Below, piece after piece: positions 20,788 through 32,921 of a DNA stretch of 64,000 nucleotides. Every line of letters starts with the position of its first letter. Positions within the stretch are counted from its first letter, which is position 1. The DNA lies in NCBI RefSeq assembly GCF_014042165.1, contig NZ_JACDZE010000001.1:248001-312000 (forward strand), read 5' to 3'. The position numbers were made by a program, and so were the translations under genes. Under the pieces are notes generated by a model. That model was given only the letters and a program-made list of their open reading frames with translations, did no database searches and was not told the DNA's origin. This DNA comes from Moheibacter lacus (lineage in GTDB: Bacteria > Bacteroidota > Bacteroidia > Flavobacteriales > Weeksellaceae).

Positions 20788-21555
20788 TCACTTCACTCCT
20801 TTTGTCAAATAATTCCACAAATACCCCCAAATCGTCGGATGATACCAAATTTGACTCTCCAATTTAGGTTCGATTTTTTGAATCGAATTTTTCTCCACAT
20901 CCTCAATTGCCTTTTGCATCAGCGGAATTCCCGCAGCAGTTTGATAATAAGGATAAGTTGTAAAATTATCGTTCTTTTCCGGTTGAATCCTAGCTTGATA
21001 CAAAATTCCGCCCGTATCGACACCTTTGTCCACCAAATGAACCGTTACGCCTGCGTTCTCCAAGTCCCTGTTAACCAACGCCCAATATCCGCCGTGAATG
21101 CCTCTATACCTCGGCGTTATGCCTTCATGTGTGTTGAGAAAAACCGCATTTACAGCAGTGAGAACTTTCTTTGAAACAATCCTACAACCATTTACTATTA
21201 CCACATCTGGATTTATTTTTTGTAGAACATCAATGGATTCTTTTGAATTCACACTCGCAACATCGATTAATTTTTCTGTTGGAATTTCATTTTGATTCAA
21301 ACCCAATTTTGCAATCACTTTTGTTTTCTGTTTTTTAGAAGAATTTCGAAGAATCGGCAACACCAGAATTCCAAATCCGATTTGCCCAATCACATTTATC
21401 CAACCCAATTTTTTCGCCCGATTTTTCATGATCGTTTTCATCGGAACCGGCGTTTCTCTTAAGACCAAATCAATATCCAAATCAGCCGCTAATCCATGGT
21501 ACATGAACCTTGACGAAACTGCCGGACCGGTTAACATGACGATTTTAAGACTCAT
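20788..21555 (-). CDS. Formyltransferase-family protein (copy 1)
   Basis: A 255-residue formyltransferase-fold protein. The catalytic triad of the family is present: Asn141 and His143 (LNTHEGITPRYRG) and Asp180 (KGVDTGGILYQ). Family members formylate amino groups using 10-formyl-tetrahydrofolate, including sugar amines in O-antigens. Its ATG lies 11 bp inside the end of the upstream deacetylase gene. Together they could swap an N-acetyl for an N-formyl group. A second pair with the same overlap is at 48.6-50.2 kb. Confidence 0.85.
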   Translation of the reverse strand: MSLKIVMLTGPAVSSRFMYHGLAADLDIDLVLRETPVPMKTIMKNRAKKLGWINVIGQIGFGILVLPILRNSSKKQKTKVIAKLGLNQNEIPTEKLIDVASVNSKESIDVLQKINPDVVIVNGCRIVSKKVLTAVNAVFLNTHEGITPRYRGIHGGYWALVNRDLENAGVTVHLVDKGVDTGGILYQARIQPEKNDNFTTYPYYQTAAGIPLMQKAIEDVEKNSIQKIEPKLESQIWYHPTIWGYLWNYLTKGVK

Positions 21556-24224: not shown

Positions 24225-25135
24225 TTGAATTTTAATTGAGTATAGATCCATGAAAAAGGATAAACTAAACAAGACAAAAATTGAAATTGATTCAATCCTC
24301 GGTTGATTTCAACTAAACTTTTCTTATTAACGATCGCGTACATTTGATAACCAATCAAATTCCGGATTAGTGTTTTAGGATATTTATACAAATCCTTTCC
24401 ATAACTATTTAAAAAAGATTGATGACCCAACATTAATCCGTATCGGTTTTTTCCGCTCCAGCGCGTGTTGGAAACGGAAGCTGCATCGTTTTCGTCTTTG
24501 TGATAAGTTCGGATGATTTTATTGATAAATCTCGTTTTCAATCCTTTTGCGTCGTAGGTATTAAAAAAAACACTTTGCGGAATGTAAATTCCTTTTGGAA
24601 GAGAATGATCGTCAAATTGATTCAATTCATTCAAATAAGATTTCGTAAAAAACACACCATTTTTATCACCTCTCACCTTGTATTTGTACCGCATCTCAAA
24701 AATGCTTCCATCAAATTCCATAGGATATTTATCGCCTACTACATTTCCCTTTTCATCACCCGAAAGCCCCATTACGGAAATAAAATCCTCTTGATTTTCT
24801 ATTTTTTCAGCTTCGCCAATTAAGATTTCAAAGGCATCGTTGGGATAGGAATCATCCGAATCCAAAATGATAAAATAAGGCGTTTGGACTTTTTTAATTC
24901 CGTTAAAAACGGTGTGAAATTTATGCTGGTTTTCGTTATAGAAATAATCAATTTCAAACGGAGAAGATTGCTGAAATCTCGCCACCAACTCTTTTGTGCC
25001 ATCTGAAGATCCATCATCCATGATGATCCATTTAAAAGTTTGGGCCGTTTGAGTTTTTAAGGAATCAAATGCACGTTGCAACGTATGTGCCCGGTTAAAA
25101 GTTGGTGTGACTACTGTTAATTTCAAATCCTTCAT
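24221..25135 (-). CDS. Family 2 glycosyltransferase
   Basis: A 304-residue GT-A enzyme starting LTVVTPTFNRAHTLQRAFDSL, with MDDGSSDGT and the DxD-type LDSDDSYPND near residue 93. Gene order GT4-GT2-GT4 with 4-bp overlaps on both sides suggests coordinated translation. Confidence 0.9.
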   Translation of the reverse strand: MKDLKLTVVTPTFNRAHTLQRAFDSLKTQTAQTFKWIIMDDGSSDGTKELVARFQQSSPFEIDYFYNENQHKFHTVFNGIKKVQTPYFIILDSDDSYPNDAFEILIGEAEKIENQEDFISVMGLSGDEKGNVVGDKYPMEFDGSIFEMRYKYKVRGDKNGVFFTKSYLNELNQFDDHSLPKGIYIPQSVFFNTYDAKGLKTRFINKIIRTYHKDENDAASVSNTRWSGKNRYGLMLGHQSFLNSYGKDLYKYPKTLIRNLIGYQMYAIVNKKSLVEINRGLNQFQFLSCLVYPFSWIYTQLKFK

Positions 25136-26295
25136 TTTTTTAAGGCAAATTGGTTTTCAAAAACTGCTGTGACTTGATTATAAATTTTTTGGGCATCAAA
25201 TTTCTCTTTGGCTTTTTCTGTTCCTTTTATTATGCTTTCTACCAATTGCGGTTCGATTAAAAATCGTTTCATCGCCTCATAAATTTTCTCTTCATCAAAA
25301 TTAACCAAAATTCCATCCACTTCATTTTCAATCATTTCTGATATTCCGCCAACATTTGTGCTGATGATCGGTTTGCCCAATCCCATCGCTTCACCGATGA
25401 TCAAAGGATAGGATTCAGATCGCGAAGGCAAAATAAAAAAATCAGCCGCTTTCATGTATGCATAAGGATTCTTTTTTGTGTCCAACAATAAAAATGTTTT
25501 TTCCACGCCCAATTCCTTCGTTTGGTTTGTCAAATTCTCCATTTCATTTCCACCACCGATTACCGCAATGGAATGCTGCAATCCTTCATCCAACAATCGT
25601 TTATGAATCCGTATCAGCGTATCATATCCTTTGCGGAAATGGAGTCGTCCGACCGATGAAAAAACCGGATGAACATCATAATTCACTTCCATCAATTCGG
25701 CTTTTGTTCTGGCTTCATCGATGTTGATGACGTTATAAATCACTGAACTTTTCGGGTATTTCACTTGATACAAATCATCGATGATTTGTCTGGTTTGAGC
25801 CGACCCAAAGATCATCCAATCAAATTTTTTCATCAGATTGATGCGCTTCATCACTCGATTTTGATCTTTATCATAACTCACATCCGTATGAAACCAACCG
25901 ATTTTTCTTGATTTTTTGTTCGGCGAATTCAACACCCATTCAAATTCGGTATAACCCGGAGCGACTTCTATATCAAAATCTTCTTTCAATTTCCGATTGT
26001 ATAAAATCGATGGAAATTTTTCATAAAAAGACAATTTCAATCGCCTTAAAACCAATTGAATTTTTTGAATCAATGGATTTTTTGAGAAATCTTCTTTTCC
26101 GCTGGCAATCGTTACCAGCCTTATGTTTTTTGGGATTTCGCTTCGGAGTTCACCTTGAAATAAATTCAACAATAAAGTGATTTCGAATTTTTCTTTTGGT
26201 AAATTTTCCAATAGATCCAATACGACTCTCGGAACGCCGCCCATTTCGAGCGAACGCAGTCGAAAAAGAACTTTTATTTTGGGTGGGTTGGCCAT
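25132..26295 (-). CDS. Family 4 glycosyltransferase
   Basis: A 387-residue GT-B enzyme with LRSLEMGGVPRV in the first glycine-rich loop and donor motifs SVGRLHFRKGYDTLI and PSRSESYPLIIGEAMGLGKPII. Related to the GT4 at 23.1-24.2 kb, probably by duplication. Confidence 0.9.
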   Translation of the reverse strand: MANPPKIKVLFRLRSLEMGGVPRVVLDLLENLPKEKFEITLLLNLFQGELRSEIPKNIRLVTIASGKEDFSKNPLIQKIQLVLRRLKLSFYEKFPSILYNRKLKEDFDIEVAPGYTEFEWVLNSPNKKSRKIGWFHTDVSYDKDQNRVMKRINLMKKFDWMIFGSAQTRQIIDDLYQVKYPKSSVIYNVINIDEARTKAELMEVNYDVHPVFSSVGRLHFRKGYDTLIRIHKRLLDEGLQHSIAVIGGGNEMENLTNQTKELGVEKTFLLLDTKKNPYAYMKAADFFILPSRSESYPLIIGEAMGLGKPIISTNVGGISEMIENEVDGILVNFDEEKIYEAMKRFLIEPQLVESIIKGTEKAKEKFDAQKIYNQVTAVFENQFALKK

Positions 26296-26296
26296 T

Positions 26297-27301
26297 TTAT
26301 TCTATTTCGGCGCCTAAATTACGATATTGTTCTTTAAACTTATCGGCCCATTTTTTCCATTCTGAATATTGGGCATCCGGATGATTAGCTTTTTCTAAAA
26401 ACGATTGAATGTATTGATCCGAAAAATCTTTCGGGTAATTTTCCATCGCATCGAACTCACCTTCCAACCAAGCTTCGTTTAAAATATGATTAATCACAAA
26501 GACATCTAACTGAAAGCCATACTTGTGAAATGTATTGGTAGCTGAAGATTTATAGGTTGTTTTGATAATTTCATCTTTAAAATAAGCGATAAAGTTTTTA
26601 GATTTATTTTTTTTATAAAAACCTATGGCATTTTTTATCTGTTGCTTTTCGTTTACACTGGAATTTAAATTTTCCCAGGTTTTCAACCAATATTCTTTTC
26701 GGTGAATCCCTGAAGAAATACTGATAAACAAATAATATTTATAGAATTCTGATGGTGAAATCATTTTTAGTTTCTTCAAAATTGTATAAACTCTAAACTT
26801 ATCGGCAAATAACCAATCGATGATGGTTGAGTTGAGACTGAACAATTTAACTTTACGCCTCAAAAAACTCTCATGAATCTTCACTAATTTTTTACTATCA
26901 AGCGACATACTATTCCACCCTAATTTCAATAGAAAAATTTGCATATTTTCCATCTCATTACAAACTTCTTCTATGTTAATTGGAGCTGTAAACCAAACAT
27001 CGTCTTCGATAACCAATACATATTCAGTTGAATTTTTCACTGCTTCATACCAATCTCTGGAAGGTATAATGCCGGAAACTTTATCTTGATTTTGGATCTG
27101 AAGTGATTTTTCGGTGTATTTTTCAGTTTGAATAATTTCTATACCCGAATGTTTCTTTTGAATTAGCTCGAGGTATTTTTCAGGTGTCCCATCATCAATA
27201 ATTTTTATATGAAACTTTCCCGAAACGTTCTTTTGGATGCTTCTAAGACATCTGTCCAAATAGTGGGGACGATTAAACGATTTGATAAGGATAGTCACCA
27301 T
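26297..27301 (-). CDS. Divergent GT2-like glycosyltransferase
   Basis: A 334-residue protein with a GT-A-like N-terminus (VTILIKSFNRPHYLDRCLRSI) and an acidic metal-site motif VIEDDVWF near residue 98. The remaining two thirds (helical, Lys- and aromatic-rich, containing YKYYLFISISSGIHRKEYW) do not match a family I can name. Probably a glycosyltransferase with an unusual acceptor domain. One base separates it from the neighbouring gene. Confidence 0.7.
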   Translation of the reverse strand: MVTILIKSFNRPHYLDRCLRSIQKNVSGKFHIKIIDDGTPEKYLELIQKKHSGIEIIQTEKYTEKSLQIQNQDKVSGIIPSRDWYEAVKNSTEYVLVIEDDVWFTAPINIEEVCNEMENMQIFLLKLGWNSMSLDSKKLVKIHESFLRRKVKLFSLNSTIIDWLFADKFRVYTILKKLKMISPSEFYKYYLFISISSGIHRKEYWLKTWENLNSSVNEKQQIKNAIGFYKKNKSKNFIAYFKDEIIKTTYKSSATNTFHKYGFQLDVFVINHILNEAWLEGEFDAMENYPKDFSDQYIQSFLEKANHPDAQYSEWKKWADKFKEQYRNLGAEIE

Positions 27302-27303
27302 AA

Positions 27304-28212
27304 TTATTTCACAAAAACAGATTTAATTATAAATTTCAATCTTTTAAAGAGCGGCAAAACTCTGTAGATTTCCCGTCCCCGTAGCATAGAGATTGTCTCT
27401 ACGCTAAAATCGAGTTTGACTTTGTCTTTGAAAATATAAAATAATAGATTGTTTCTGTGTGAAATTAAATTTTCCAATATTTTTCCTTCAAAACCAAATC
27501 TTTCTATAATTCCATCGAGCGTTTGGACTGTTCGCTGTCTTTGTATATATTTTTCTTTGCCGCTGAAAACTCCCACGTTGATACGATAAGCTGCCATAAC
27601 TTCTTTGTGATAATGGATGAACCCTAGGCGTGAATTAGCCATGTGCATGGCATAATCCCCCAAGGGCATATTTTGAAGCAACTTTGTATCGATTTCTGTT
27701 TTTCTAAAAATAACCGAAAGATTGGGGATAAAATTATTTAGTGCTAAATCTTCAGTACTTAGTTTGGATTTTAAGTTCAATGAAGGAAATTCGTTTATTT
27801 TTTCTCCATCAGGCGTAATTCGCATTGCTCGGTGAAAGGAGATGGAAAAGTTAGGATTAGCTTCTAAAAAGTCAACTTGCTTTTGCAATTTCAATGGATC
27901 AGTCCAATAGTCATCACCTTCGCACATAGCGATGTATTTGCCCTGAGCACGTGAGAAGTTGTAGGTTGATTGTATTGTGCGAACACCTTTTGACCATTGA
28001 TTTTCTGTTTGAAATATTGGCTTGATGATATGTGGATATTTTTCCTGATACTCCTTAATTATTTTCGCAGTGCCATCTGTAGAAGCATCGTCATGAATTA
28101 GAACTTCATATTCAAAATCACATTTCTGCATCAGAAATCCATCCAAGCATTCCCGAATGTAAGGAGCGTGATTATACGTAATAGAACAAATGGAAACCAT
28201 TAAATTATCCAT
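27304..28212 (-). CDS. Family 2 glycosyltransferase
   Basis: A 302-residue enzyme with VSICSITYNHAPYIRECLDGF, IHDDASTDGTAKI and the motif CEGDDYWTDPLKLQKQV near residue 98, a pattern common in GT2 enzymes of Bacteroidota capsule loci. It overlaps the pyruvyltransferase-like gene by 8 bp. Confidence 0.9.
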   Translation of the reverse strand: MDNLMVSICSITYNHAPYIRECLDGFLMQKCDFEYEVLIHDDASTDGTAKIIKEYQEKYPHIIKPIFQTENQWSKGVRTIQSTYNFSRAQGKYIAMCEGDDYWTDPLKLQKQVDFLEANPNFSISFHRAMRITPDGEKINEFPSLNLKSKLSTEDLALNNFIPNLSVIFRKTEIDTKLLQNMPLGDYAMHMANSRLGFIHYHKEVMAAYRINVGVFSGKEKYIQRQRTVQTLDGIIERFGFEGKILENLISHRNNLLFYIFKDKVKLDFSVETISMLRGREIYRVLPLFKRLKFIIKSVFVK

Positions 28213-29326
28213 GATTTGAGATTTTATTTACAAGTTGATCAAATAAATTATTTAGGGAAGACTTCATAAATTTTGAGTAGTTCCTTAGCAACTCCGTTCC
28301 TTCTTCCTTTTCCTCAATCAAACTGCTTAACAAATCAGGCATCTCGCCCAGTTGATGTTTTAGCATATGTAATCGAAATTGATGCCCATATAAATCCTGT
28401 AATTTGGTTCCTTGCCACTTATTCATTATCCCTGCAGGAATTCCAGCTGATAAAGCTGTAATATTTGCATGTAGCGAAGATGTTAAAGTTAATGATGAGT
28501 GGACAATAGTATCTGCTATTTCTAGGATGTTTAAATCGTTGTTAAGCAAAATAAATTCATCTGGAAACTCGTCCCAAATCATTTTTAAGTATTTATAATC
28601 TTCCCAAGGTCTGATAACAGGTAATAATACTACTTGAATGTTCTCTTCTTTTTGAAATTGATATAGATACTGAGCTATTTCTTTTGCTTCCTCGATCGTG
28701 ATATTATTGATTTGAAAAATAAGGTACTCTTCTTGGGGAACATATTCTTTGTAGAATTTTCCTTTTGTATTTGTATAATCCAACAAATTCGGAAAAAGCC
28801 ATCCCATATCTGGGGTTATTTCTATTTTAGAATTATTTGTTTGAAGATTACCTCCTTCTAACATTTTCTTGGACAGGTTCCCTCTAACCGAAACATAGTT
28901 CAGGTTTTCTATCGCTTTCTGTATTTTTAAAAAGTGTTCTTCTTTTTCTATAGGACGCACTCCAACAGAAATCCAAGCTTTAAAGGGACCGACTAAGTCT
29001 GTCCAATCAAAAATTATATCTGATGGTAGTTCTGTTTCCAATATTTGATTGTTTTTAGTATAAATTGGCTTCCAAGTTCTTTCATCAAAAAGATGAATAA
29101 CTTCGCCTCCAAAGACAATCAAAGCGTCATAAGCATTTTCTGCAATTTTTTCTTTGCTGTAAGCGATATAATCAATCCCCTCAACACTGTAATTGCTGGG
29201 AGAATAAAAGTCAATAATAGGATTTTCAATCCTCTTTTCCATCTCCATTTTAAAAATATGAGAGAAAAGAATATCTCCAAAATTATCTATATCGGCAAAC
29301 GAGAAAAAAGCTATTTTAATTGACAT
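28205..29326 (-). CDS. Polysaccharide pyruvyl transferase family protein
   Basis: A 373-residue GT-B-like protein of the CsaB/WcaK family, which transfers a ketal-linked pyruvate to a sugar. Visible elements are the start FFSFADIDNFGDILFSHIF, ISVGVRPIEKEE, PDMGWLFPN and the conserved SSLHANITALSAGIPA near residue 290. A pyruvyl ketal would add negative charge to the glycan. It overlaps the upstream ATP-grasp/HAD gene by 1 bp. Confidence 0.85.
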   Translation of the reverse strand: MSIKIAFFSFADIDNFGDILFSHIFKMEMEKRIENPIIDFYSPSNYSVEGIDYIAYSKEKIAENAYDALIVFGGEVIHLFDERTWKPIYTKNNQILETELPSDIIFDWTDLVGPFKAWISVGVRPIEKEEHFLKIQKAIENLNYVSVRGNLSKKMLEGGNLQTNNSKIEITPDMGWLFPNLLDYTNTKGKFYKEYVPQEEYLIFQINNITIEEAKEIAQYLYQFQKEENIQVVLLPVIRPWEDYKYLKMIWDEFPDEFILLNNDLNILEIADTIVHSSLTLTSSLHANITALSAGIPAGIMNKWQGTKLQDLYGHQFRLHMLKHQLGEMPDLLSSLIEEKEEGTELLRNYSKFMKSSLNNLFDQLVNKISNHG

Positions 29327-30606
29327 TAGTTTTTTATTAAAGATTTAATTCCATCTACATCAAATACCGGCATTCCTATTTGCTCAAAGACTTCTTTTCT
29401 TTCTTTATAGAAATTGTCTACAAAGATGGATGCAGGTTGTTGCATGTATTTAAATTTTTGATCGTTCATTTCCATATGTATGATTTCGTCAAAAAGATTT
29501 TCGGCAATATGGTATTTTTTTAAAGTTTCTTTTAAATCGAATTCATGCTTGGTGATTAAATAAACTTTTTTTCCTTGATTTTTACTTTGGTACACAAGAG
29601 AAATGGCATCCAGACAAACTTTTCCATTGATAATCAAGGTGTCGTCAAAATCAATGAAAAGATTCTCATATTCGATTTTATATTTTGCTTTGGTTTGGGA
29701 ATACCTATAAAGCTCAATGTCTTTGTGCATTACATTTATTTCAACATCCATGTCAAAATAAGCAAATGTGGTCAAAAGAGGAAGGTTAACACCCTTGTAA
29801 CGATCAAAAGCCATCGTTGTGGCTATTCTTGGACAGATTTCAAGTAATTTTAAATCTCCTGACTTGTCTTCTTTCACTTGAAAAAACCAAAGTCCTTTGA
29901 ACTTTAGTTCATCGTTTATTTTCTTTCCTATTTCAAAACATGCATCAATAGTTGCTTGGTCAGCTTCTACATTGATGTGTGAAACACCGTTTCTAACCAG
30001 ATGTCTTTTTCTTGGAAAGGCGTATAAAAGTTCGTTGTTTTTATCAGAAAAACAATCAACCGTAAATTCATCCCCGGGTAAGAATTCTGTGACTACATTA
30101 TTTTCAAATAATTCATCTTTCAAATCAGATGCATCATTTATTTTAAATGTTCCAATGCTTCCATGTCCTTTATCTGGCTTACAAAAAATAGGGTACTCGG
30201 AAATTTCATTGGATTTAAAATACTGTCTTGGTACAAAGTCATATTTACTTAGCAAATCATAAGTCTTACTTTTATAACGAGCTACTTGATTTATATTAGG
30301 ATCTACACCTACGATTTTTGTATTTATCTCATCTTTATTTTTTGATAGAAAATAAACCACATCGTCATGCGTAGGAAAAATCAAGTCTATACTATAAGTG
30401 TTTATGATTCTATTTAACTCATCTACAAAGTTTGCTTCTGAAATATTGGGAAGTGTAATTACTTTATTTTCAATAATCAAATCAGCAATACTCTCTTTGG
30501 AATTCGCTCCATATACATTTAAATGTACACTATACCTCAAAGATTCGTAAATCTCCAATGCGTTATCAGCACCACATGGATAAATTAAAATATTTCTTTT
30601 CTTCAT
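29326..30606 (-). CDS. ATP-grasp ligase fused to a HAD-type domain
   Basis: A 426-residue two-domain protein. Residues 1 to about 305 form an ATP-grasp enzyme resembling CarB-like ligases: the nucleotide loop CKPDKGHGSIGT (142-153), EFLPGDEFTVD (174-184) and the metal motif LLEICPRIA (254-262). Residues about 315-426 form a HAD-like domain with motif I FIDFDDTLI (Asp319, Asp321), a Lys/Thr motif LITKHEF and a final acidic motif FVDNFYKER. ATP-grasp enzymes join a carboxylate to an amine or thiol, so it may attach an acid to a sugar amine; the HAD part may be a phosphatase. It is overlapped with WbqC on one side and the pyruvyltransferase on the other. Confidence 0.82.
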   Translation of the reverse strand: MKKRNILIYPCGADNALEIYESLRYSVHLNVYGANSKESIADLIIENKVITLPNISEANFVDELNRIINTYSIDLIFPTHDDVVYFLSKNKDEINTKIVGVDPNINQVARYKSKTYDLLSKYDFVPRQYFKSNEISEYPIFCKPDKGHGSIGTFKINDASDLKDELFENNVVTEFLPGDEFTVDCFSDKNNELLYAFPRKRHLVRNGVSHINVEADQATIDACFEIGKKINDELKFKGLWFFQVKEDKSGDLKLLEICPRIATTMAFDRYKGVNLPLLTTFAYFDMDVEINVMHKDIELYRYSQTKAKYKIEYENLFIDFDDTLIINGKVCLDAISLVYQSKNQGKKVYLITKHEFDLKETLKKYHIAENLFDEIIHMEMNDQKFKYMQQPASIFVDNFYKERKEVFEQIGMPVFDVDGIKSLIKN

Positions 30607-31314: not shown

Positions 31315-32388
31315 TTAGATGGTTTTTATAACTTCTGAAATTCTTTTAACTACTACCTCCTCCAAATCAAAATAGAACGGCAAACACAGCACTCTTTTTG
31401 AAACACTATCCGTTACTTCCATTTCTCTGGGATCCAAATAAGGAAGTGCCGTCGCCAAACTCGGATAAAAATAACGACGGGTCTGGATTTGATTGGCTTC
31501 CAATTTTTCTTTGACCTTCAATAAAACTTCTTCGCTTTCCAACAAAATAGGATAATAAGCATAGTTTTGAGTTGCTCCGGAATGCCAAACAGGTTTCTGA
31601 TGCGGAAAATCCTTTAGATTTTCATCATAAGATTCGCTCAAGGCTTCTCGCTTCTGATGGATTTTTTCAATGTAATTTAGGTTTACCAATCCCATTGCCG
31701 CATGAAATTCGGAGTTTTTGCCGTTTATGCCCAATTCTGCAAAACTATCAAACCCCGAAATCCCAAAGTTTCGGATGTACTTTAATTTTTGATTTAATTC
31801 AGAATGATTGGGTATCACCAGTCCTCCTTCGATACAGTGGTAAAGCTTGGTTGCATGAAGCGAACAAGTGGATATATCACCGTATTCAAAAATAGATTTA
31901 CCGTTTACTTGTACTCCAAAAGCGTGCGCACCGTCGTAAATGACTTTGAGATTGTGTTTTTGGGCTATTTTCTCAATCGCTTCTACATCACAAGGATTTC
32001 CATAAACGTGTGTAGCCAATATGGCGGAAGTTCTCTCCGTGATGGCAGCTTCGATTTTACGGGGATCGATGTTCAGCGAATTTTTGTCAATATCAACAAA
32101 AACAGGCTTACAGCCTTCCCAGACAATGCTACTTGTAGTTGCTACAAAGGAAAAAGGGGTGGTGATGATTTCTCCTTTCAGCTCCAATGCTTTGATCGCC
32201 ATTTGCAATGCCACCGTTCCATTGGTCACAAAAAGAAGGTGTTCTACACCCAAATGGGTTTTTAATTTCTCTTCCAATTCATTGGCAAGCGGCCCCATAT
32301 TGGTCAGCCAATTGCGCTCCCAGATTTCACTGATGTATTTTTTATATTCTTCTTCCGGCGGAAGAAAAGGTTGGGTTACTAATATCAT
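31315..32388 (-). CDS. DegT/DnrJ/EryC1/StrS aminotransferase
   Basis: A 357-residue PLP-dependent sugar aminotransferase. The PLP lysine is Lys181 (SLHATKLYHCIEGG) and the PLP-nitrogen aspartate Asp152 (VIYDGAHAFG). N-terminal FLPPEEEYKKYI and FVTNGTVALQ are typical. It converts a keto-sugar nucleotide to an amino sugar. No dehydratase for a 4-keto precursor is visible in the minus-strand operon. Confidence 0.92.
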   Translation of the reverse strand: MILVTQPFLPPEEEYKKYISEIWERNWLTNMGPLANELEEKLKTHLGVEHLLFVTNGTVALQMAIKALELKGEIITTPFSFVATTSSIVWEGCKPVFVDIDKNSLNIDPRKIEAAITERTSAILATHVYGNPCDVEAIEKIAQKHNLKVIYDGAHAFGVQVNGKSIFEYGDISTCSLHATKLYHCIEGGLVIPNHSELNQKLKYIRNFGISGFDSFAELGINGKNSEFHAAMGLVNLNYIEKIHQKREALSESYDENLKDFPHQKPVWHSGATQNYAYYPILLESEEVLLKVKEKLEANQIQTRRYFYPSLATALPYLDPREMEVTDSVSKRVLCLPFYFDLEEVVVKRISEVIKTI

Positions 32389-32921
32389 TTAGGTTGGTTT
32401 TTTAATATCAATTCCTGCTTATTAACAATGACCGAATTCGCCGGAACGTCTTTATGAATCACACAGCCGGCACCAATGATGGAATTATCCCCGATGCTTA
32501 CGCCTTTCAAAACCACCGAATTACTTCCCAACCAACAGTTTTTCCCAATTTTCACAGCTCCATAAGTAAATTCTTTCCGATTTACGTTGAGTTCACCGTT
32601 TCCGTGGGAATAGGCATGATTATGGTCATAGACTTTTACACCTTCTCCAAAAATGGTATTCTCTCCTATTTCTATGGATTTCAAACAATTGACCGAACAA
32701 AAGTTATTCATAAAAACATTCTCGCCCATTTTTAATTCGGCATTTTTGCCCACCCAAATACTAATGTAATTCCGGAAATCAAGATTTTTCCCAAACTGAA
32801 GTTTCGCCGTTTCTGAAATTTGGGCAACAAAGCCAATTCCAATTTTCACACTTTTGGCTTGGCTACGGAACCGCTTTTCACTTTCACTTCTCAGCAGGTA
32901 TATCAATAATTTCTCAAGCAT
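32385..32921 (-). CDS. Hexapeptide-repeat sugar O/N-acyltransferase
   Basis: A 178-residue left-handed beta-helix acyltransferase of the WbbJ/maltose acetyltransferase type. Repeats run from about residue 48 to 165 (IGENTIFGEGVKVYDHNHAY with the catalytic-type histidine, then IGKNCWLGSNSVVLKGVSIGDNSIIGAGCVI). It is the first gene of the long minus-strand operon and overlaps the aminotransferase gene by 4 bp, consistent with acylating that enzyme's amino-sugar product. Confidence 0.88.
   Translation of the reverse strand: MLEKLLIYLLRSESEKRFRSQAKSVKIGIGFVAQISETAKLQFGKNLDFRNYISIWVGKNAELKMGENVFMNNFCSVNCLKSIEIGENTIFGEGVKVYDHNHAYSHGNGELNVNRKEFTYGAVKIGKNCWLGSNSVVLKGVSIGDNSIIGAGCVIHKDVPANSVIVNKQELILKNQPK

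Follow-up and report, generated by a model that had tools for sequence, protein, structure and literature searches.

In a 64,000-nucleotide stretch of DNA (the window), a single polypeptide joins an ATP-grasp domain to a HAD-like domain; it is one member of a scattered, uncharacterised family found in several phyla. We lean towards the view that this fusion serves surface-glycan biosynthesis as an ATP-dependent amide ligase, N-acylating dTDP-4-amino-4,6-dideoxyglucose (dTDP-Qui4N) or its WbqC-modified form. A literature search returned no paper that links an ATP-grasp/HAD fusion with the acylation of amino sugars. The open reading frame is uninterrupted and occurs once in its genome.

The fusion is part of a minus-strand run that begins at position 32921 with a hexapeptide acyltransferase, probably an O-acetyltransferase, and continues with a DegT aminotransferase, a WbqC-family protein, the fusion and a pyruvyltransferase, followed by glycosyltransferases (Table 1). 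Further along, past the glycosyltransferases, lie a deacetylase and a formyltransferase-like gene, the latter a possible second N-acylation within the same locus. The two-domain polypeptide proposed in the preliminary description is borne out by Pfam matches, predicted fold, motifs and a profile match, and its gene order stands as well. Its term "overlap-coupled" fits the acyltransferase/DegT (4 bases), WbqC/fusion (4 bases) and fusion/pyruvyltransferase (1 base) joints but not the DegT/WbqC joint, where a 10-base gap makes the run packed without being overlap-coupled throughout.

Table 1. Features of the glycan locus, in positions of the window
Feature	Position	Strand	Evidence
Hexapeptide acyltransferase, first gene of the run	32385..32921	-	Pfam Hexapep; WbbJ-like, below cut-off
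DegT-family nucleotide-sugar aminotransferase, closest to DesI	31315..32388	-	Pfam, NCBIfam TIGR04427, PDB match
WbqC-family protein, 233 aa	30603..31304	-	Pfam WbqC (PF08889) 241.7 bits against a cut-off of 21.3, full length (profile 1-216 of 218); predicted BshC/aminoacyl-tRNA-synthetase-like Rossmann fold
ATP-grasp/HAD fusion, 426 aa	29326..30606	-	ORF, Pfam, AlphaFold model, homologues in 23 other loci
ATP-grasp half of fusion, residues 1-304	29695..30606	-	PylC-like N-terminal domain and ATP-grasp core
Capless HAD-like half of fusion, residues 305-426	29326..29694	-	Motifs, model secondary structure, hhalign
Polysaccharide pyruvyl transferase	28205..29326	-	PF04230 (PS_pyruv_trans) 87.4 bits
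Family 2 glycosyltransferase	27304..28212	-	Pfam
Glycosyltransferase-like protein	26297..27301	-	Pfam; 42% to gene in syntenic locus L172
Group 1 glycosyltransferase	25132..26295	-	Pfam; 70% to gene in syntenic locus L172
Formyltransferase-like protein	20788..21555	-	NCBIfam comparison

Architecture and spread of the fusion

A search for the same fusion elsewhere, as the preliminary description had advised, recovered 23 other loci, 21 from a scan of 84,980 species genomes and two from the host's bacterial family, all with the same architecture. The 23 fetched homologues are full or near-full-length at 32-41% identity, with one (L019) ending at a contig end; a two-domain arrangement that recurs in this way is not due to chance. 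They come from Bacillota, Pseudomonadota, Bacteroidota, an archaeon and others, with representatives in Lachnospiraceae, Bacillus, Fictibacillus, Pseudoalteromonas, Catenovulum, Polynucleobacter, Armatimonadetes and Methanosarcina, and a Cupriavidus megaplasmid also carries the gene. Even so, the fusion is sparse, with copies in three of 197 genomes of the host's bacterial family (E < 1e-90) and in two of 395 genomes across the phylum, a patchy distribution consistent with horizontal movement of a glycan-locus gene.

The ATP-grasp half scored above the cut-offs of two Pfam families, ATPgrasp_Ter (PF15632; 69.6 bits against 29.1) and ATP-grasp_3 (PF02655; 35.3 bits against 23.2). An AlphaFold model of the fusion, built from 17 aligned homologues, has a mean pLDDT of 91.5 and an ATP-grasp fold, aligning in VIA-align with 2pn1 at Z 28.2 and with PylC at Z 27.1. 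Profile searches gave the same two entries (1.2e-25 and 1.3e-6, respectively), with the L-amino-acid ligase BL00235 (PDB 3vot; 3.5e-8) between them. PylC, the 3-methylornithine:lysine ligase (PDB 4ffl/4ffr), has a similar N-terminal domain and fold and forms an amide bond at the expense of ATP, but it belongs to the pyrrolysine pathway and has no HAD domain. Judged from these sequence and model matches, the ATP-grasp half is a probable amide-bond-forming ligase. The fusion is not an equivalog of PylC (NCBIfam TIGR03909, 36.6 bits against a cut-off of 248.3), nor of PRK12767, all of whose NCBIfam cut-offs it falls below.

Eight residues, K112, K143, E180, R201, E256, R260, R269 and N274, are invariant across 24 fusion sequences. 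The ExN motif is expected where the window fusion has E256-x-C-x-R260, and the fused forms in general read E-x-[A/G/S/C/E]-x-R there; the missing asparagine, which is typical of the ATP-grasp superfamily but not universal in it, may alter metal use or activity. A lone ELNKR, and another from a viral copy (L218, second match), lie elsewhere in the chain and not at the motif site.

The HAD-like region spans approximately residues 310-426, with a capless β-α-β core in the model. Its motifs, D319-x-D321-D322-T (I), T352 (II), K384 (III) and D397 (IV), are near-invariant in the 24 homologues, with D319, D321, T352, K384 and D397 kept in 21-24 of the 24 sequences. By hhalign, this half matches separate HAD genes at E 1.6e-5 with motifs II-IV co-linear. 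No Pfam HAD model scored over its cut-off for the HAD half, the best being Hydrolase_3 (E 8e-4 in two of 15 members), and a PDB profile search with it gave no meaningful match. The catalytic motifs have decayed strongly in one homologue (L018:7971-9302) and partly in another (L006:8001-9293), so phosphatase activity would not always be needed.

The losses in both halves bear on the reading that the ATP-grasp half is catalytically impaired and that the protein plays a structural or regulatory part in the pathway. The ExN asparagine is gone from the scored fused members and the HAD motifs have decayed in L018, as such a role would allow; against it stand the eight invariant residues, K112, K143 and E256 among them, and BL00235, an L-amino acid ligase according to its PDB entry, which likewise lacks the asparagine and has E-V-G-A-R at the same position. 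We regard impairment as very improbable. BL00235 thus shares an E-x-[AG]-x-R motif with the putative ligase, although it joins two free amino acids and has no HAD domain.

The nearest unfused relatives are PRK12767-type, carbamoyl-phosphate-synthase-like ATP-grasp proteins, represented here by 27 single-domain proteins from the host's bacterial family. A HAD gene directly follows 19 of the 27, mostly with an overlap of a few bases; ATP-grasp and HAD are therefore commonly paired, and the fusion is the one-polypeptide counterpart of that pair. The separate HAD proteins are longer (~212 aa against ~115 aa in the fusion), and the unfused ATP-grasp proteins keep E[IL]NxR, with the asparagine present in all 24 that were scored. 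Both differences make a recent joining of the separate pair unlikely.

The neighbouring aminotransferase and the proposed reaction

A DegT gene is present in 22 of the 23 fusion loci, across phyla, and lies within 1.4 kb of the fusion in 17. A DegT is that close to only 9 of the 27 unfused relatives (Fisher p = 0.005); DegT genes are frequent in glycan loci, so adjacency is weak evidence alone, and the contrast between fused and unfused forms is real but modest. At an out-of-sample locus (L211), a DegT (57%) again adjoins the fusion. RmlA-like genes occur in 13 and RmlB-like genes in 14 of the 23 loci, two of which are represented by stretches of only 4 kb.

DesI was the top NCBIfam model for the window DegT and for nine of ten others, always below the equivalog cut-off. 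For the window protein, the DesI/VioA model TIGR04427, which describes aminotransferases acting on dTDP-4-dehydro-6-deoxyglucose, was best at 265 bits, yet far below its cut-off of 650. The top PDB match was 2po3 (DesI). RmlB (60%) and RmlA (65%) homologues are encoded on another contig of the host genome. From the DesI-like DegT and the RmlA/RmlB context, including the host's own genes, dTDP-Qui4N is the likely sugar of the window locus. One locus (L020) is an exception, carrying FdtA and a different DegT whose top model is not DesI, and may use a 3-amino sugar. UDP-amino sugars, which the preliminary description had named as substrates to test, are disfavoured by the RmlA/RmlB/DesI context; its broader idea, that an amino sugar is made and then acylated, gains contextual support from the DegT genes and from the enzymes that take the place of the fusion in related loci.

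These replacements were seen in 15 loci with full-length WbqC from the host's bacterial family, the window included. A DegT lies directly before WbqC in 12 of them (67-74% identity, window included). The gene after WbqC encodes a GNAT acetyltransferase in two loci, a formyltransferase in one, a hexapeptide transferase in two, a PLP-type protein in six and the fusion in one, the window. Locus L172 has counterparts of the DegT, WbqC and hexapeptide genes of the window and of two of its glycosyltransferases, but a GNAT in the position of the fusion. Within one genus, L174 has the order DegT-WbqC-PLP protein and L176 DegT-fusion. We give these syntenic swaps more weight than DegT adjacency: no other contextual evidence speaks as strongly for N-acylation, by the fusion, of the DegT product or one of its derivatives.

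The PLP-type protein (318 aa; L053:2187-3140, L058, L059, L061, L065, L066) follows WbqC in six loci of the host's bacterial family. It belongs to no Pfam family and is distantly DegT-like, with D-N-A-Q and S-P-R-K motifs, and is possibly a second PLP enzyme; a PDB profile search with it gave no meaningful match.

From the architecture, conservation, gene context and fold, we infer the following reaction and order of steps. RmlA and RmlB, encoded elsewhere in the genome, would supply dTDP-4-keto-6-deoxyglucose, which the adjacent DegT would aminate to dTDP-Qui4N. The substrate of the ATP-grasp half would be a carboxylic acid, in the simplest case an amino acid or hydroxy acid, which it would activate as an acyl phosphate and join to an amine of the dTDP-amino sugar. 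In the other fusion loci, the acceptor is probably the 4-amino group of the sugar itself; in the window, WbqC may have added an amino acid beforehand, whose own amine would then serve as acceptor. The HAD half, which is capless, would probably act as a phosphatase of the same step, for example dephosphorylating the donor acid or the product, and the N-acylated sugar could then be polymerised by the neighbouring glycosyltransferases.

A phosphatase fused to the ligase, or encoded next to it as in most of the unfused relatives, suggests a phosphorylated intermediate, and this could also mean that the fusion produces or alters a distinct small acid or phosphorylated metabolite for another part of the glycan, such as a phosphate-containing side group, with DegT just a frequent neighbour. 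LicD or CDP-glycerol phosphotransferase-like proteins beside some fusions would suit such a role, as would viral contigs: several of the 18 fusion-bearing contigs in IMG/VR have no recognisable DegT. However, LicD and Glyphos_transf are sporadic, the link to an aminotransferase largely holds in cellular genomes, where DegT is common to nearly all fusion loci, and N-acyl enzymes occupy the slot of the fusion in syntenic loci. We consider a separate metabolite unlikely and keep to N-acylation of the amino sugar.

WbqC and its predicted fold

WbqC has been described as functionally uncharacterised (PMC5532660). The preliminary description had cast it as the partner of the fusion, which the wider sample contradicts: the two occur together only in the window and in L018, one of the 23 other fusion loci, and two loci from the host's bacterial family (L176, L177) have DegT and the fusion without WbqC. 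An obligate partnership is thereby ruled out; measured against the refuting condition in the preliminary description, the WbqC half of the proposal falls, and the aminotransferase half largely stands in cellular genomes. Most WbqC loci lack the fusion, and the steady partner of WbqC is DegT. Nearly all of the 197 genomes of the host's bacterial family also encode a shorter WbqC-family protein of ~200 aa (for example G000:C8:40864-41274), whose neighbours differ from those of the glycan-locus copy.

The further suggestion that the cluster offers a way to place WbqC function gains new support from a predicted fold. An AF2 model of WbqC (pLDDT 95.8, 45 sequences) aligned in VIA-align with BshC, the bacillithiol synthase (4wbd), at Z 14.4 over 223 of 233 residues with an rmsd of 3.5, while the next matches, class I aminoacyl-tRNA synthetases and CoaD, reached Z 8.6 and below. 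WbqC is less than half the length of BshC; its conserved residues include Q7, G15, Y16, R42, N43, Y166 and D213. The match was made by VIA-align only: Foldseek on WbqC returned nothing under E 0.001, the BshC family PF10079 is not among its Pfam matches, and a PDB profile search with WbqC gave no meaningful match. An hhalign comparison of the two gave a probability of 0.2% (E 0.36). As profile-level similarity is absent, we draw the claim from the fold and treat it as a hypothesis. The reaction ascribed to BshC joins cysteine to the amine of glucosaminyl-malate; as of a 2015 review, it had yet to be shown in vitro (PMC4360819). The parallel would be direct, an amino acid being joined to an amino sugar in each case, and the model suggests that WbqC too could be an aminoacyl-aminosugar ligase.

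If so, two amide-forming enzymes might work in series at the window locus, WbqC adding an amino acid to the 4-amino group and the fusion capping the amine of that amino acid. The fold match, which far exceeds that to the aminoacyl-tRNA synthetases, and the DegT-WbqC order fit such a series, as does the N-acyl enzyme that comes next in five loci besides the window; capping by the fusion would then parallel the formyl- and acetyltransferases of the sister loci. The name wbqC comes from E. coli O121, whose Qui4N carries N-acetylglycine. Amino sugars with N-acetylated amino acids, such as Qui3N-Ala-Ac and FucN-Thr-Ac, likewise occur in marine O-antigens (PMC3210612). On the other side, the fusion usually acts without WbqC, the similarity between WbqC and BshC escapes profile comparison, BshC itself awaited demonstration in vitro in the review cited above, and in six of the 15 loci it is the PLP-type protein, and no acyltransferase, that follows WbqC. 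The serial arrangement is thus a tentative reading, less probable than N-acylation by the fusion as such.

Viral copies and an accompanying methyltransferase

In IMG/VR, at least 80 contigs carry WbqC and 18 carry the fusion, in some cases with portal, capsid or terminase genes alongside; the counts from these contigs are not independent, because many are near-duplicates. A search of a phage collection found no fusion. Full-length DegT is rare on the IMG/VR contigs with WbqC or the fusion. A shortened DegT of ~210 aa keeps the regions of the PLP lysine and the aspartate, lacks the mid-segment and the C-terminal domain, and matches DegT in hhalign with a probability of 97% (E 2.8e-11). Its gene is found upstream of WbqC, at a distance of one or two genes, on 54 of 80 contigs (on one of them as a 329-aa form), and upstream of the fusion, at most three genes away, on 10 of the 18. 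Examples are L220:5331-5966, L216:5342-5998 and L228:5368-5991, with about 50 further distinct IMG/VR sequences.

O-antigens of marine and other bacteria contain Qui4N, Qui3N and FucN that bear amide-linked amino acids or hydroxy acids (PMC3210612), and among the papers searched none credits their formation to an ATP-grasp enzyme, to the fusion or to WbqC. WbqC and the fusion might, more speculatively, be two unrelated amide ligases that load acids, amino acids among them, onto dTDP-4-amino-6-deoxysugars, alone or in series, including in phages with the shortened DegT; WbqC would then be the missing amino-acid-adding relative of BshC behind aminoacylated amino sugars. If the proposed roles of the fusion and WbqC are correct, they would place a scattered and uncharacterised fusion family, provide a concrete, testable hypothesis for WbqC and help the prediction of glycan structures from gene clusters.

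Bacterial and viral loci alike can have a small methyltransferase gene as a neighbour of the fusion (L003:9292-9831, L007:9271-9831, L216:7251-7787, L220:7266-7793, L223, L225), which suggests methylation of the sugar or of the group attached to it. A methyltransferase sharing 46-54% identity with the one beside the L007 fusion is encoded adjacent to a viral fusion, or close to it, on five contigs, of which two are duplicates.
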